Shown in pieces: positions 4,447-17,419 of a DNA stretch of 34,362 nt (position 1 is its first letter; the number at the start of each line of letters is the position of its first letter). Position numbers and translations under genes: made by a program. The DNA is taken from the NCBI GenBank assembly GCA_903864435.1, contig CAIPFY010000110.1, positions 1-34,362 on the forward strand, written 5' to 3'. The notes below the pieces were generated by a model, which searched no databases, was not told the DNA's origin, and was given only the letters and a program-made list of their open reading frames with translations. This DNA comes from an uncultured Chloroflexota bacterium. GTDB taxonomy: Bacteria; Chloroflexota; Anaerolineae; Aggregatilineales; Phototrophicaceae.

Positions 4447-5433
4447 TTACTCGGCAAGGATATTCCCCGGATGACGGAACGACACCGACAGCACCAGCCT
4501 GCCGAGGCGCAGTTCATCGCCGTGCCGCAACACGCGCACTTCTTTCGCCAGCATCCGCTGACCGTTTAGGTACGACCCGTTGGAACTCCCCAGATCAGCC
4601 GCCAGCACCGCATTGTTGGCGCTGTCGTAGTGCAGCGTCATGTGCATGCGCGATACGCCCAGATCAACCGCTTTGGTATTCTTCAAATCCACATCCGGCG
4701 TGACGGCGCTGCCCTGCGTGCTGCGTCCGACCACCAATTCCTGCTCGGATCTCTGCGGGCGCACCTCGAACGTTTCGGTTGTGCCGCGCACCCGCAGCAC
4801 CATCACCGAATCCGAACCGAAGAATTCGCTATCCAGCGGTAATGTTTCTTTGTCGGTAAAAGTGCGCGTTTCAAAAACGCCTTTCACAGGTTCCAGCATT
4901 TGCCCGCACGAATAGCAAAACACCTCATGCTTCTGGTTCGTCTTGCCGCAATTCGGGCATTTCACCCACACAATCGCAGCGGGGTCGCTGTCCGGCGGAC
5001 GTTGTGCCAGCAGGCGATCGCCTGCGGCGGGAACAAACTGGGTAATGGTCTGCGTTTCCACTGTTGGACTCGGTCGGGATGAGGCCAACGGAACGATTTG
5101 GGGGGCAGAGGGCGGCGCGGGCGGCGGCTCAATCTCTGCCGAGAAGGGCGGCGTGACGGGCGGCAGCGGGTGCGCGGGTTGAATCGGGCGAATGGACGGG
5201 TTGCTAGAGGGCGCAGGCGGCGCTTGCCCGATGGGCTTCACCACGCCGCCCACAAGCCCCGCCGCCTGCGCCAGCTTTTGCTCATGACCACGCAGCGCGC
5301 CGGCCAATTCTTCGCGTTCCTGTTTGTTCAGCCCTTCAATATGAGGACGAAGCACATTCAGCGCACCTTTGGCATCCAGACCATTGTCGCGCATCCGTGC
5401 ATATTCTTTGAAGATTTCTTTTTGTCGTCCCAC
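4447..5433 (-). CDS. Zinc-ribbon and FHA-domain protein
   Basis: Cytoplasmic adaptor-type protein of about 328 aa. The order is a charged helical N-terminus (about 1-60), a proline-rich low-complexity linker (about 65-150), a zinc ribbon with two CxxC pairs (CPNCGKTNQ and CYSCGQ), then a C-terminal FHA domain. FHA landmarks are GRSTQGS, SRMHMTL and SSNGSYLNG, the residues expected to bind phosphothreonine peptides. A GTG at 5439 is only 2 nt from AGGAG (5442-5446); the GTG at 5433 has 8-nt spacing and is preferred. No Ser/Thr kinase is present in the window, so the phospho-partner is unknown. It diverges from the selenoprotein gene. Confidence 0.82.
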   Translation of the reverse strand: MGRQKEIFKEYARMRDNGLDAKGALNVLRPHIEGLNKQEREELAGALRGHEQKLAQAAGLVGGVVKPIGQAPPAPSSNPSIRPIQPAHPLPPVTPPFSAEIEPPPAPPSAPQIVPLASSRPSPTVETQTITQFVPAAGDRLLAQRPPDSDPAAIVWVKCPNCGKTNQKHEVFCYSCGQMLEPVKGVFETRTFTDKETLPLDSEFFGSDSVMVLRVRGTTETFEVRPQRSEQELVVGRSTQGSAVTPDVDLKNTKAVDLGVSRMHMTLHYDSANNAVLAADLGSSNGSYLNGQRMLAKEVRVLRHGDELRLGRLVLSVSFRHPGNILAE

Positions 5434-5527
5434 CTGCACGGCTCCTGATCGCCATTGATCGAGATGCGAAATGCTTGTATTTGGATTGTAGCCTGATTTT
5501 CAGAGCGCCGCTGAAAAAGGGATACGC

Positions 5528-5533
5528 TATAAT
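5528..5533 (+). promoter_or_regulatory. Candidate -10 box upstream of the selenoprotein gene
   Basis: A perfect TATAAT lies 35 nt before the ATG at 5568, in the region between two divergent genes. No convincing -35 hexamer is seen at the expected distance, so the call rests on the -10 and its position. Confidence 0.35.
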
Positions 5534-5567
5534 AACCGGACACGTTACTCAAAAAAAGGACAGAATC

Positions 5568-5867
5568 ATGCGCTATCCACTGCTCGATGTGACCATCGAA
5601 TACTGCGCGGTTTGACACCACACTCCCCGCGCCGTCAGTTTGACGGACGAATCGCTGAGTGTGCCGGAAATCGAGACATTTGTGCGCTCATGGACACTGG
5701 TTCCCAGTTCGGGCGGACGTTTTGAAGTCACCGTCAACGGGGAACTTATTTTTTCAAAGAAGGCGCTGGGGCGACATGCTGAACCGGGCGAAATTCTGGC
5801 GCTGATCCGGGCGAAAGCCGACGCCATTCGCCCGCCCGGTGTCGAATTTATTCCCGACAGCGAATGA
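5568..5867 (+). CDS. SelW/Rdx-family selenoprotein with in-frame TGA (Sec16)
   Basis: Small thioredoxin-like redox protein of the SelW/SelT/SelH (Rdx) family, 99 residues if TGA at 5613-5615 is read as selenocysteine. The reading starts at ATG 5568 after AAGGA (7-nt spacer) with MRYPLLDVTIEYCAV, then TGA, then HHTPRAVS, and continues in the same frame to the stop at 5865-5867. The TGA occupies the second position of the family CxxC motif, giving C13-A-V-U16. Downstream residues are hallmark Rdx: LVPSSGGRFEVTVNGEL and ALGRHAEPGEI. A SECIS-like hairpin follows the TGA directly. Ordinary gene callers would start at TTG 5640 and lose the redox site. No Sec machinery is in the window; a TGC-to-TGA error is the main alternative. 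Confidence 0.85.
5616..5663 (+). promoter_or_regulatory. Bacterial SECIS-like hairpin
   Basis: Immediately after the TGA, CCGTC (5632-5636) pairs with GACGG (5642-5646) around a 5-nt loop AGTTT that has a G in its second position, 21 nt from the TGA. A second, outer 7-bp stem joins CACACTC (5619-5625) to GAGTGTG (5657-5663). Spacing, stem length and the loop G fit the known rules for SelB-binding bacterial SECIS elements. Confidence 0.75.
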
Positions 5868-5889
5868 TCCGCAAACCCGCCCCCGTGTC
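5867..5889 (+). repeat. 23-bp direct repeat, copy 1, with hairpin
   Basis: A 23-bp sequence starting ATCCGCAAACCC at the selenoprotein stop is repeated exactly at 6075-6097. Here it continues into a hairpin (GCCCCCGT 5879-5886 with ACGGGGGC 5904-5911). Confidence 0.75.
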
Positions 5890-6030
5890 GGGTGCATTCG
5901 GAAACGGGGGCAATGACCCTCATCTCCTGCCCTTCCGCTGCGCGTCATGGCGAAGGGTGTAAGGCAAGCGGACACATCTCGCGTCATGTCCCTACTGTAT
6001 TTCTCCCCTCGCCTAGCTGTACTCAGCGGT

Positions 6031-6074: not shown

Positions 6075-6097
6075 ATCCGCAAACCCGCCCCCGTGTC
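6075..6097 (+). repeat. 23-bp direct repeat, copy 2, with hairpin
   Basis: Exact second copy of the repeat at 5867-5889. Its GCCCCCG again pairs downstream, with CGGGGGC at about 6111-6117, so both copies are the 5' arm of a hairpin although the 3' arms differ. It lies in the leader of the amino-acid-binding protein gene. Confidence 0.75.
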
Positions 6098-6146: not shown

Positions 6147-7265
6147 ATGAGGAAACTGATCGCGCTGCTGTGCATGGGTGTACTGGTGCTGGGGTGGCAA
6201 ACGGCAGCCGCACAACCCGAAACGCCCGCCGTCATTGGCCCCACCTTGAACAGCATCCTCTCACGGGGGGTGGTCAACTGCGGCGTCAGTGCCGACTTCC
6301 CCGGTTTTGGCGTGGTAGACCCCAACAGCGGCCTGCTGAACGGCTTTGATGTGGATTTCTGTCGGGCGCTGGCCGCCGCACTCTTTGGCGATGCCACCGC
6401 TGTCGAAACCATCCCCCTGTTCAGCCCGACGGAAGGACGCGCCGCCCTCCAGGATGGGCAGATTGATGTCTTGCTGCAAATGGCGGTCGTTTCGCTGGCA
6501 GATGATGCGGCAGACATGGAATTCGCGCCGGTCATCTTTTACAGCGGACAGTCATTCCTCACCCGCGCCGACAGCCCTGTGCAGGACTGGCCGGGGTTGA
6601 GCAGCGCCAATATCTGCGTGGTCGCCGGCGGTTCCGCCGAGGAGTCGCTGCCAGCGGCCCTCGATCTGCGCGGCTTGAGTGCCATCATCTCGCCACTGAA
6701 TAACCTGTCTGCCGCGTGGGATGGCCTGAGCAATGGCCGCTGCGACGCGATCAGCGCCGATCTGACCAGCCTCACGCTGCTCCAGCAGCAAGCCGACGAC
6801 TCGACGGCTTATGGGGTGTGGCAGCGCGCCGATCAGATTTACACCCGTGAACCGTTCGCGCCGCTGCTGCGGGCGGGAGATGACCAGTGGGCGAACATCG
6901 TGCGCTGGACAATTCTCGGCCTGATTCAAGCCGAACAATTAGGGATTAGCAGCGAAACCGTGACCACGCTCAAACGCGGCAAAGTGCCGAATCCGCAGGA
7001 CGCAACGCAGCCGTTCGATGAAGTGGATGCGGACTACCTGAACCGCGTCGGTTGGTCGGTGGCGCGGGTGCTGGACACCTCCCTCGGCATGGGGGCGCAG
7101 TTGGGGCTGGCGACCGGTTTCATGCAGTCGGTGGTGGCACAGGTGGGCCACTACGGCGAAATCTATGCCCGCAATCTAGGGTCGCAATCGCCGCTGCCCA
7201 TCGCACGCACCCTGAACGCGCTGGCGACCACTGGCGGCCTGATCTACGCCCCCGATTGGCGCTAA
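6147..7265 (+). CDS. Amino-acid ABC transporter substrate-binding protein (AapJ-like)
   Basis: Secreted solute-binding protein of 372 aa. The signal peptide (MRKLIALLCMGVLVLG, cleavage near TAAAQ) follows GGAGAGG with 10-nt spacing. The mature protein opens with LNSILSRGVVNCGVSADFPGFG and NGFDVDFCRALAAALFGD, characteristic of AapJ-type general L-amino-acid binding proteins (SBP_bac_3 fold). Further landmarks are DVLLQMAVVSLADD and a C-terminal VGHYGEIYARNLG. AapJ partners (AapQMP) are usually adjacent, but none is in this window, so it is an orphan or works with a permease encoded elsewhere. Substrate is inferred. Confidence 0.88.
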   Translation: MRKLIALLCMGVLVLGWQTAAAQPETPAVIGPTLNSILSRGVVNCGVSADFPGFGVVDPNSGLLNGFDVDFCRALAAALFGDATAVETIPLFSPTEGRAALQDGQIDVLLQMAVVSLADDAADMEFAPVIFYSGQSFLTRADSPVQDWPGLSSANICVVAGGSAEESLPAALDLRGLSAIISPLNNLSAAWDGLSNGRCDAISADLTSLTLLQQQADDSTAYGVWQRADQIYTREPFAPLLRAGDDQWANIVRWTILGLIQAEQLGISSETVTTLKRGKVPNPQDATQPFDEVDADYLNRVGWSVARVLDTSLGMGAQLGLATGFMQSVVAQVGHYGEIYARNLGSQSPLPIARTLNALATTGGLIYAPDWR

Positions 7266-15824: not shown

Positions 15825-16766
15825 CTACTCCGCTGGCGGAACTTTCGGGTTGTTGGCGGCCATCGCCGTCATCAACTGCTGCGCCATACTGGTCAATTCC
15901 ATCGGCAGAACAAACTTGGTCGAAGGGCTGGAACCTACCTCGCGCAGCGCATCCAGATATTGCAGCGACATGGTGTTGGCATCCACATCTTTCGCTTGGC
16001 TGGCGATGGCTTGCAGCGCCGCCGCGAAACCCTGCGCCTTCAACACCTGCGATTGGCGCTGGCCTTCCGCTTCGAGGATTGACCGCTGTTTCTCGCCTTC
16101 CGCCCGCAAAATAGACGCCTGCTTCTCGCCTTCCGCCACCGCGATAGAGGCTTCGCGTTCACCGCTGGCACGGGTGACGGTGGCGCGGCGCTCACGTTCG
16201 GCGCTCATCTGGCGGTTCATGGCGTCCTGCACTTCACGCGGGGGCTTAATCTCGCGGATTTCGACGGTGGTGATCTTCATCCCCCAGCGTTCGGTAATTT
16301 CGTCCAGCTTGATGCGCAGCGTATCGTTAATCTGTTCGCGCTTCGCCAGCACATCATCCAGCGTAAGATCACCGATGACGGCGCGCAGGGTGGTCGTGGC
16401 GATGTTCACCGCCGCGCTAACCACATTATCCACTTGCAGCACCGCCAGTTTCGGCTCTACCACGCGGTAGTACACCAGAAAGTCAATGTCAATCGGGGCA
16501 TTGTCACGGGTAATGCCGGTCTGCGAAGGGATGTCGAGAAAGCGTTCGCGCACATCCACCTTACGCACCTGTTCAACAAACGGGATCACAAACACGACGC
16601 CGGGGCCGCGTGTACCGGCGTAGCGCCCCAACGACAGCACCACGAGACGCTCGGTTTCCGGCACGATGCGGATCATGCGCGAGATTAACCAGAACACCAG
16701 CAGCACAACGAAAATCAACAGAATAATTGCACTTGAACCACCAAAAGCCTGATTAAAATCGTTCAT
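15825..16766 (-). CDS. SPFH/Band 7 protein (slipin, stomatin-like)
   Basis: 313-aa membrane-anchored prohibitin-homology protein that forms large oligomers in membrane microdomains. It has an N-terminal transmembrane helix (about 13-30), the band-7 core (VPETERLVVLSLGRYAGTRGPG, VDVRERFLDIPSQTGITRDN, IDFLVYYRVVEP, RAVIGDLTLDDVLAKRE), then a long Ala/Glu-rich coiled coil (about 185-250). It overlaps the upstream nfeD gene by 4 nt (ATGA). Slipin-NfeD pairs are a well-known conserved module linked to membrane quality control. Confidence 0.93.
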   Translation of the reverse strand: MNDFNQAFGGSSAIILLIFVVLLVFWLISRMIRIVPETERLVVLSLGRYAGTRGPGVVFVIPFVEQVRKVDVRERFLDIPSQTGITRDNAPIDIDFLVYYRVVEPKLAVLQVDNVVSAAVNIATTTLRAVIGDLTLDDVLAKREQINDTLRIKLDEITERWGMKITTVEIREIKPPREVQDAMNRQMSAERERRATVTRASGEREASIAVAEGEKQASILRAEGEKQRSILEAEGQRQSQVLKAQGFAAALQAIASQAKDVDANTMSLQYLDALREVGSSPSTKFVLPMELTSMAQQLMTAMAANNPKVPPAE

Positions 16767-17419
16767 TCCCTCTCCTCCAGATGGGATTGTTCCGGGGTCT
16801 GGTGCTTGTGCTTGACCCCTTCTACCAATAATTGAAGTCCTTCACGATCCTGCACAATAACTTCGTCACCGACTTCCAGCGGGTGTTCGCTGGAGGCTGT
16901 CCAGTGTTCACCGCGCACGTTCACGCTGCCAATGTGGACTTTGCCCACCGGTTGCGAGGCTTTCACCACACGCCCCGCCGCGCCCACTAACTGCTCGTTG
17001 TCGTCAATCACCGCTGATTGCTGCCGCATCCGTTTGAGCAGCGGCATCAGCGCGTAGCGGTGGTATACCCACGCCACGCCAACGGTCAGCAGAATCAACC
17101 ACCACGCGACCGGCATCGTGTTGAACAGCAGGAACGCGCCCAACGCCTGTACCAGCAGGCCAACTTCCGCGATTCGTCCGGCGCGGGGGTAGGCCAACGG
17201 GGTGAGATGGAAACTCAGCAGGCCGACAATCACTAGCAGCACGCCGAGCCAGTTCACAGGCAGATTGGTGAACAGCACCAGCGCCCCGCCCACCAGAATC
17301 AGCGCCGCGATTTCCAACGCGCCGGTGCCGGGGACATAAACCGCCATGACGGCTGCCCACAGGCCAAATACGAGGACGAAATAGACCAGACCGGGATCGG
17401 ACAAAACGGATGTGAACAC
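16763..17419 (-). CDS. NfeD family membrane protein
   Basis: 218-aa partner of the slipin. It has about four or five N-terminal transmembrane helices and a C-terminal OB-fold NfeD domain (LVGAAGRVVKASQPVGKVHIGSV, WTASSEHPLEVGDEVIV, VEGVKHK). It lacks the ClpP-like protease domain of long NfeD proteins, so it is the short form. The start is GTG 17419, 5 nt after AGGAG. It is the first gene of the coupled nfeD-slipin operon, and the soluble OB domain is expected to contact the slipin. Confidence 0.9.
   Translation of the reverse strand: MFTSVLSDPGLVYFVLVFGLWAAVMAVYVPGTGALEIAALILVGGALVLFTNLPVNWLGVLLVIVGLLSFHLTPLAYPRAGRIAEVGLLVQALGAFLLFNTMPVAWWLILLTVGVAWVYHRYALMPLLKRMRQQSAVIDDNEQLVGAAGRVVKASQPVGKVHIGSVNVRGEHWTASSEHPLEVGDEVIVQDREGLQLLVEGVKHKHQTPEQSHLEERE

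Follow-up and report, generated by a model that had tools for sequence, protein, structure and literature searches.

Introduction

Bacterial SelW-like selenoproteins were published in 2005 from 48 Sargasso Sea sequences, and the available portion of that report gives a G in the apical loop as the mark of the bacterial SECIS element (PMC1088965). In 2006, SelW-like selenoproteins were listed for Geobacter sulfurreducens, Desulfotalea, Symbiobacterium and others, and the part of the paper at hand credits the Chloroflexi with three selenoproteins in three families (PMC1794560). For Epsilonproteobacteria, SelW genes that had been missed in annotation were described in 2015, together with an invariant apical-loop G in the SelW element (PMC4607533, partial text). 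Among the open-access literature titles that we searched, none was of a SelW study in Anaerolineae.

Here we evaluate a candidate for this family, called selW below, from an uncultured Chloroflexota bacterium. The window, meaning the whole stretch of DNA that was analysed, is 34,362 nucleotides long. An original prediction made from its sequence had proposed a SelW/Rdx selenoprotein encoded across an in-frame TGA, and we combined family profiles, structure prediction, comparative genomics and RNA covariation to assess it.

The selW frame and its neighbours

The following features of the window are needed for the argument:

5568..5867, + strand: selW, very probable selenoprotein gene of the SelW/Rdx family; product of 99 residues, with residue 16 predicted to be Sec
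5613..5615, + strand: in-frame TGA, conserved in relatives, predicted to be read as selenocysteine at the second redox position of CxxU
5640..5867, + strand: in-frame TTG-initiated 3' part of selW, not a separate gene; a stop-respecting gene caller could report it
4447..5439, - strand: FHA-domain protein gene, divergent from selW, a neighbour kept in the genus
6147..7265, + strand: family 3 extracellular solute-binding protein gene, a neighbour kept in the genus

The ATG at 5568 opens a frame on the + strand that ends at the stop TGA at 5865-5867. Its translation reads MRYPLLDVTIEYCAV-TGA-HHTPRAVSLTDE...ALGRHAEPGEILALI... up to that stop and includes the EYCAV-TGA motif and the ALGRHAEPGEI residues. 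Re-reading the sequence thus returned the frame as it had been proposed, with the ATG at 5568, the EYC motif, the TGA at 5613-5615, ALGRHAEPGEI and the stop at 5865. The ribosome-binding site that had been claimed is borne out as a fair one (AAAAAAAGGAC, 5' of the ATG), and AAGGAG-type sites occupy the same place in several relatives. The in-frame TTG lies at 5640-5642.

The FHA-domain and solute-binding-protein neighbours give no clear hint of what selW does, and zinc-ribbon matches in the FHA-domain protein fall under the cut-off. An exact 23-base direct repeat is present in two copies in the window, one just 3' of selW (5867-5889) and one before the solute-binding-protein gene (6075-6097). 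Elsewhere in the window, the minus strand carries a match to the PemK/MazF-like toxin family (PF02452; 24918-25442) and adjoining SPFH/Band 7 and NfeD genes (15825-17419).

Family membership and predicted fold

For profile scoring, Cys was written for Sec at the inner TGA. The selW product is a member of the Rdx/SelT-SelW-SelH family by Pfam PF10262 (60.8 bits against a cut-off of 22.6, 1.5e-16, residues 8-81) and by TIGR02174 (48.1 bits, cut-off 34.2). Against NF041051 (SelTWH_Campy), a Campylobacterota model, it scored 75.7 bits, below the cut-off of 88. Solved SelW-related proteins also match the product by sequence, with Cys at the TGA position in both alignments shown (2fa8 and 3dex). Cys likewise replaces Sec at the redox position in two loci from sampled genomes, L042 and L045; the Rdx relatives with Cys at position 16 to which the original prediction had pointed are found among both solved proteins and genomic sequences.

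The order of strand 1, CxxC/U and helix 1 defines the Rdx/SelT-SelW-SelH family. An AlphaFold2 model of the selW product, made from a 30-row alignment (pLDDT 90.1), has a strand at residues 6-13 and a helix at residues 19-30, with CxxU placed where strand 1 ends, ahead of the helix, and is predicted to adopt a thioredoxin-like fold in which the redox motif sits between the first strand and the first helix. When the model was searched against PDB structures, SelW-related bacterial structures came out on top (best 2fa8, E 1.4e-8) and mouse SelW stood at rank 23 (E 1.7e-3).

Conservation of the in-frame TGA

Genome contigs were scanned for relatives using patterns that leave out residue 16, and the best 80 of the 187 loci found were kept. 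Codon 16 is TGA in 80/80 of these best 80 of 187 and codon 13 is Cys in all of them as well, as expected of the proposed CxxU with TGA at its second redox position. By name, the same best 80 of 187 comprise 66 Chloroflexota-type loci (we take their genus names to belong to the Chloroflexota), eight Gemmatimonad, four Actinomycetota-type, one Armatimonadetes and one Bacillus.

Whole genomes were sampled at two depths. In a sample of 61 genomes, made up of the window's own genome and 60 relatives, 29 match selW; 27 of these, the window's own included, have a CxxU copy, one (G028) has a Cys copy, and one (G016) has a remnant only. Genome G025 has a second, CxxC-type Rdx paralogue (L045, 36% identical) beside its TGA-selW. 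Across the class, a selW relative, counted irrespective of the codon at position 16, was present in 178/396 sampled genomes (E <= 0.001), and among the class-wide matches listed G028 alone has no stop inside. Some rows of this wider sample carry an extra TAA, TAG or TGA inside the match. The TGA-selW matches L131 and L136 (genomes G347 and G323) also span a TAA, for which overrun of the true end and decay are both possible. TGA-selW further appears under the names Actinomycetota or the like and Bacillus (L088, L090, L093, L115 and L122), where transfer or mis-binning is possible.

The coding sequence that follows the TGA is itself conserved. Among 11 same-genus sequences, codons 29-92, which lie after the hairpin described below, have a pN/pS of 0.27 with pN<pS in 55/55 pairs, indicating purifying selection. 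The TGA of selW thus aligns with Sec or Cys of its homologues and is followed by a conserved reading frame.

A SECIS-like hairpin downstream of the TGA

The original prediction had also placed a SECIS-like hairpin 3' of the TGA. Its core is:

5632..5646, + strand: bacterial SECIS-like hairpin core, stem 5632-5636 with 5642-5646, loop 5637-5641

The stem begins after a spacing of 16 bases from the TGA. To follow it in relatives, we aligned the window with the 80 named loci (81 rows, 77 of them distinct), leaving out the whole-genome loci, several of which lie on contigs equal in length to those of named loci; the 51 bases around the TGA align gap-free throughout, and the loop G at 5638 is invariant (81/81 sequences). 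Covariation was tested on the 77 distinct rows against 500 shuffles, with a six-pair stem and five-base loop that were derived from the same sequences. Three of the five measures lie beyond all 500 shuffles: hairpin cells that are paired (86.1% against a shuffled mean of 79.9), hairpin cells changed on both sides (37 against 9.2) and the covariation score (0.325 against 0.194). Two measures are weaker, with 15/500 shuffles as high for pairs showing a change on both sides (5/6 pairs) and 177/500 for further pair types (10). Sliding the 3' side of the hairpin gave 14.5-63.4% pairing, the outermost pair is unpaired in 43/77 distinct rows, and RNAalifold chose four of the six stem pairs on the same alignment. 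The covariation and the invariant loop G uphold the predicted hairpin, directly 3' of the TGA and with a G in its apical loop. Its fold as a single sequence is weak and not significant (z -1.76; 13/200 shuffles fold as well). A search of 5400-5900 against Rfam, which is not known to hold a general bacterial SECIS family, gave no match up to E 1.

Synonymous change across the 11 same-genus sequences is lowest in the hairpin, with a pS of 0.32 in codons 17-28, 0.62 in codons 1-15 and 0.66 in codons 29-92; at this low pS, pN<pS holds in only 44/55 pairs for the hairpin codons. The combinations of residues 23 and 26 among the 81 sequences include V-T 37, V-A 19, A-A 11, I-M 7 and T-V 2.

A covariance model of the hairpin region found the selW site in its own genome at 59.7 bits (by construction), and since the next match, at 15.5 bits, was not significant, this search shows no other selenoprotein gene there. 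The model likewise had no match in the selD locus described below, nor in the Cys copies L042 and L045 or the remnant L044, the last three being a weak control in that the model includes coding and TGA columns.

These results bear on whether the TGA could be a sequencing or assembly error for a Cys codon, or selW a dead pseudogene. The genome is a draft (5.39 Mb in 464 contigs, 94.54% complete, 4.88% contamination) and a decayed-looking copy exists in the same-genus genome G016 (L044), both of which would suit such an account. An error or a dead gene is nevertheless hard to reconcile with the same TGA in other species (80/80 of the best 80 of 187 relatives), with purifying selection on the codons after the hairpin in the genus, and with covariation in the hairpin, and we rejected it as extremely improbable.

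Selenocysteine machinery in the same genome

It had been predicted that the host would have selA, selB, selC (tRNA-Sec) and selD, and all were matched in the window's own genome. The tRNA-Sec lies on contig C176 (68.6 bits; named tRNA-SeC (tca) by ARAGORN), with eight further matches below the cut-off. Some of the controls, Caulobacter, Thermus and Thermotoga among them, also exceeded this cut-off, so the tRNA-Sec model alone is not specific. The selB gene is on C120 (376.2 bits), with the cut-off exceeded in 2/14 control genomes. The selA gene is split over contig ends, with positions 1-407 of 455 on C260 (518.6 bits) and 387-454 on C249, the two parts sharing 29 residues. On C453, selD (369.8 bits) contains one TGA, at CAG*ASK, and because of this in-frame TGA it is probably, judged from its sequence, a selenoprotein gene too. 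The selD locus (L014) is G000:C453:6867-7802 on the minus strand.

An in-frame TGA alone does not tell which residue is inserted, and a variant code reading TGA as Trp or another residue would also account for it. Against such a code stand selW itself and seven more of the 27 TGA copies, which use TGA as their terminal stop, the redox position of the codon, where L042 and L045 have Cys, and the tRNA-Sec and selB in the genome; it was rejected, and we regard it as having next to no chance of being correct. A different proposal is that the UGA doubles as a regulated stop, giving Sec when selenium is plentiful and otherwise ending the protein after 15 residues. In known bacterial systems, termination does compete with Sec insertion. 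Here there is no sign of a role for the short product, and the proposal, which we think very unlikely, would add to Sec insertion at residue 16 rather than replace it.

Co-occurrence with selB and absence within the genus

We then compared the distribution of selW with that of the machinery, calling selB at E <= 1e-60 and tRNA-Sec at E <= 1e-8. Among the 60 relatives, selB was present in 40 and tRNA-Sec in 44, with a tRNA-Sec match in all 40 selB genomes. The expectation that the trait would be unusual for this kind of bacterium did not hold, given selB in two thirds of these relatives (40/60) and the SelW relatives in 178/396 genomes of the class. A tRNA-Sec without selB was seen in G028, G037 and G044 (best 50.5-56.5 bits) and in G049 (76.1 bits). 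The strong tRNA-Sec of G049, with no selB at E <= 1e-60, may be a real exception or reflect a missed selB.

Counting the window's own genome (61 in all), selB is found in 27/27 genomes with TGA-selW and in 14/34 others (Fisher p 2.4e-7, with related genomes treated as independent). Since those 14 genomes keep selB and no TGA-selW was found in them, the machinery is not there for selW alone in the order as a whole.

Within the genus, TGA-selW and selB occur together in 11/17 genomes, and in 11/11 of the genus loci selW is flanked by the FHA-domain gene on one side and the family 3 solute-binding-protein gene on the other. In the other six genomes (G003, G004, G010, G011, G015 and G016), selB and tRNA-Sec are both missing at the set thresholds; these genomes are 76-97% complete with 2-10% contamination, and the locus is assembled in each. 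Five of these six have both neighbours at one locus and no selW match there (tblastn E <= 0.05). The sixth, G016, retains a decayed-looking remnant of 61 codons at the syntenic site (L044:1429-1614); it still has its start, its TGA and its C-terminal part, but Gly replaces Cys13 and about 37 central residues are missing. No Cys version of selW was found in the 17 genus genomes.

Because 11 of the 17 genomes have both genes, six have neither selB nor an intact selW, and none has a Cys version, selW might be a chief reason why this genus retains the Sec machinery. The hairpin may also couple residues 23 and 26, an RNA constraint in protein evolution. We offer this reading tentatively and consider it somewhat doubtful. 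Near relatives that have selB and others that lack it, including one in which a remnant persists at the site, provide a neat natural experiment on how Sec use is lost.

Proposed mechanism and significance

Because of the family scores, the conservation of the TGA, the hairpin covariation, the predicted fold and the genome's own selA, selB, selC and selD, the locus is very probably, on sequence grounds, a genuine SelW/Rdx selenoprotein gene. These lines of evidence, and the co-absence with selB, were all obtained by computation. The product would be a SelW/Rdx protein that is predicted to fold like thioredoxin and to have selenocysteine as the second residue of its active site. SelB, loaded with Sec-tRNA (anticodon UCA), would recognise the hairpin that starts 16 bases 3' of the UGA and insert Sec as residue 16. 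The resulting active site would read CAVU and lie between the first strand and the first helix, and the protein would then most likely act as a small thiol/selenol oxidoreductase via a Cys13-Sec16 bond. We put the probability of this explanation as a whole at roughly 97%.

The locus lends support to the decoding of UGA as selenocysteine in this uncultured bacterium. SelW relatives are frequent in the class, and such genes are easily shortened in annotation.

Comparison with known systems

The CxxU motif is common to the window's selW and the bacterial SelW-like selenoproteins in the available parts of the earlier reports (PMC1088965, PMC1794560). Its hairpin also resembles the bacterial SECIS elements of the first of these, which in the accessible text follow the UGA immediately and carry a G in their small apical loop (PMC1088965). 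Compared with the SelW proteins of both reports, so far as their available text extends, the lineage here is Chloroflexota-type and the gene lies between FHA-domain and solute-binding-protein genes in its genus (PMC1088965, PMC1794560). The Epsilonproteobacteria SelW, in the portion of that report at hand, is a Sec protein, as the window's selW product is predicted to be, and its gene shares with selW a hairpin after the TGA, a covarying stem and an invariant loop G; its apical hairpin is a 5/6-bp one (PMC4607533). The window's selW differs in coming from another phylum and in scoring below the NF041051 (SelTWH_Campy) cut-off. The solved Rdx proteins (2fa8, 2obk, 3dex, 2p0g and others) match it in fold and sequence but differ in having Cys at the Sec position in both alignments seen, those of 2fa8 and 3dex. 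Bacterial SelW selenoprotein genes are already known, and the selW of this window extends the family to one more lineage.
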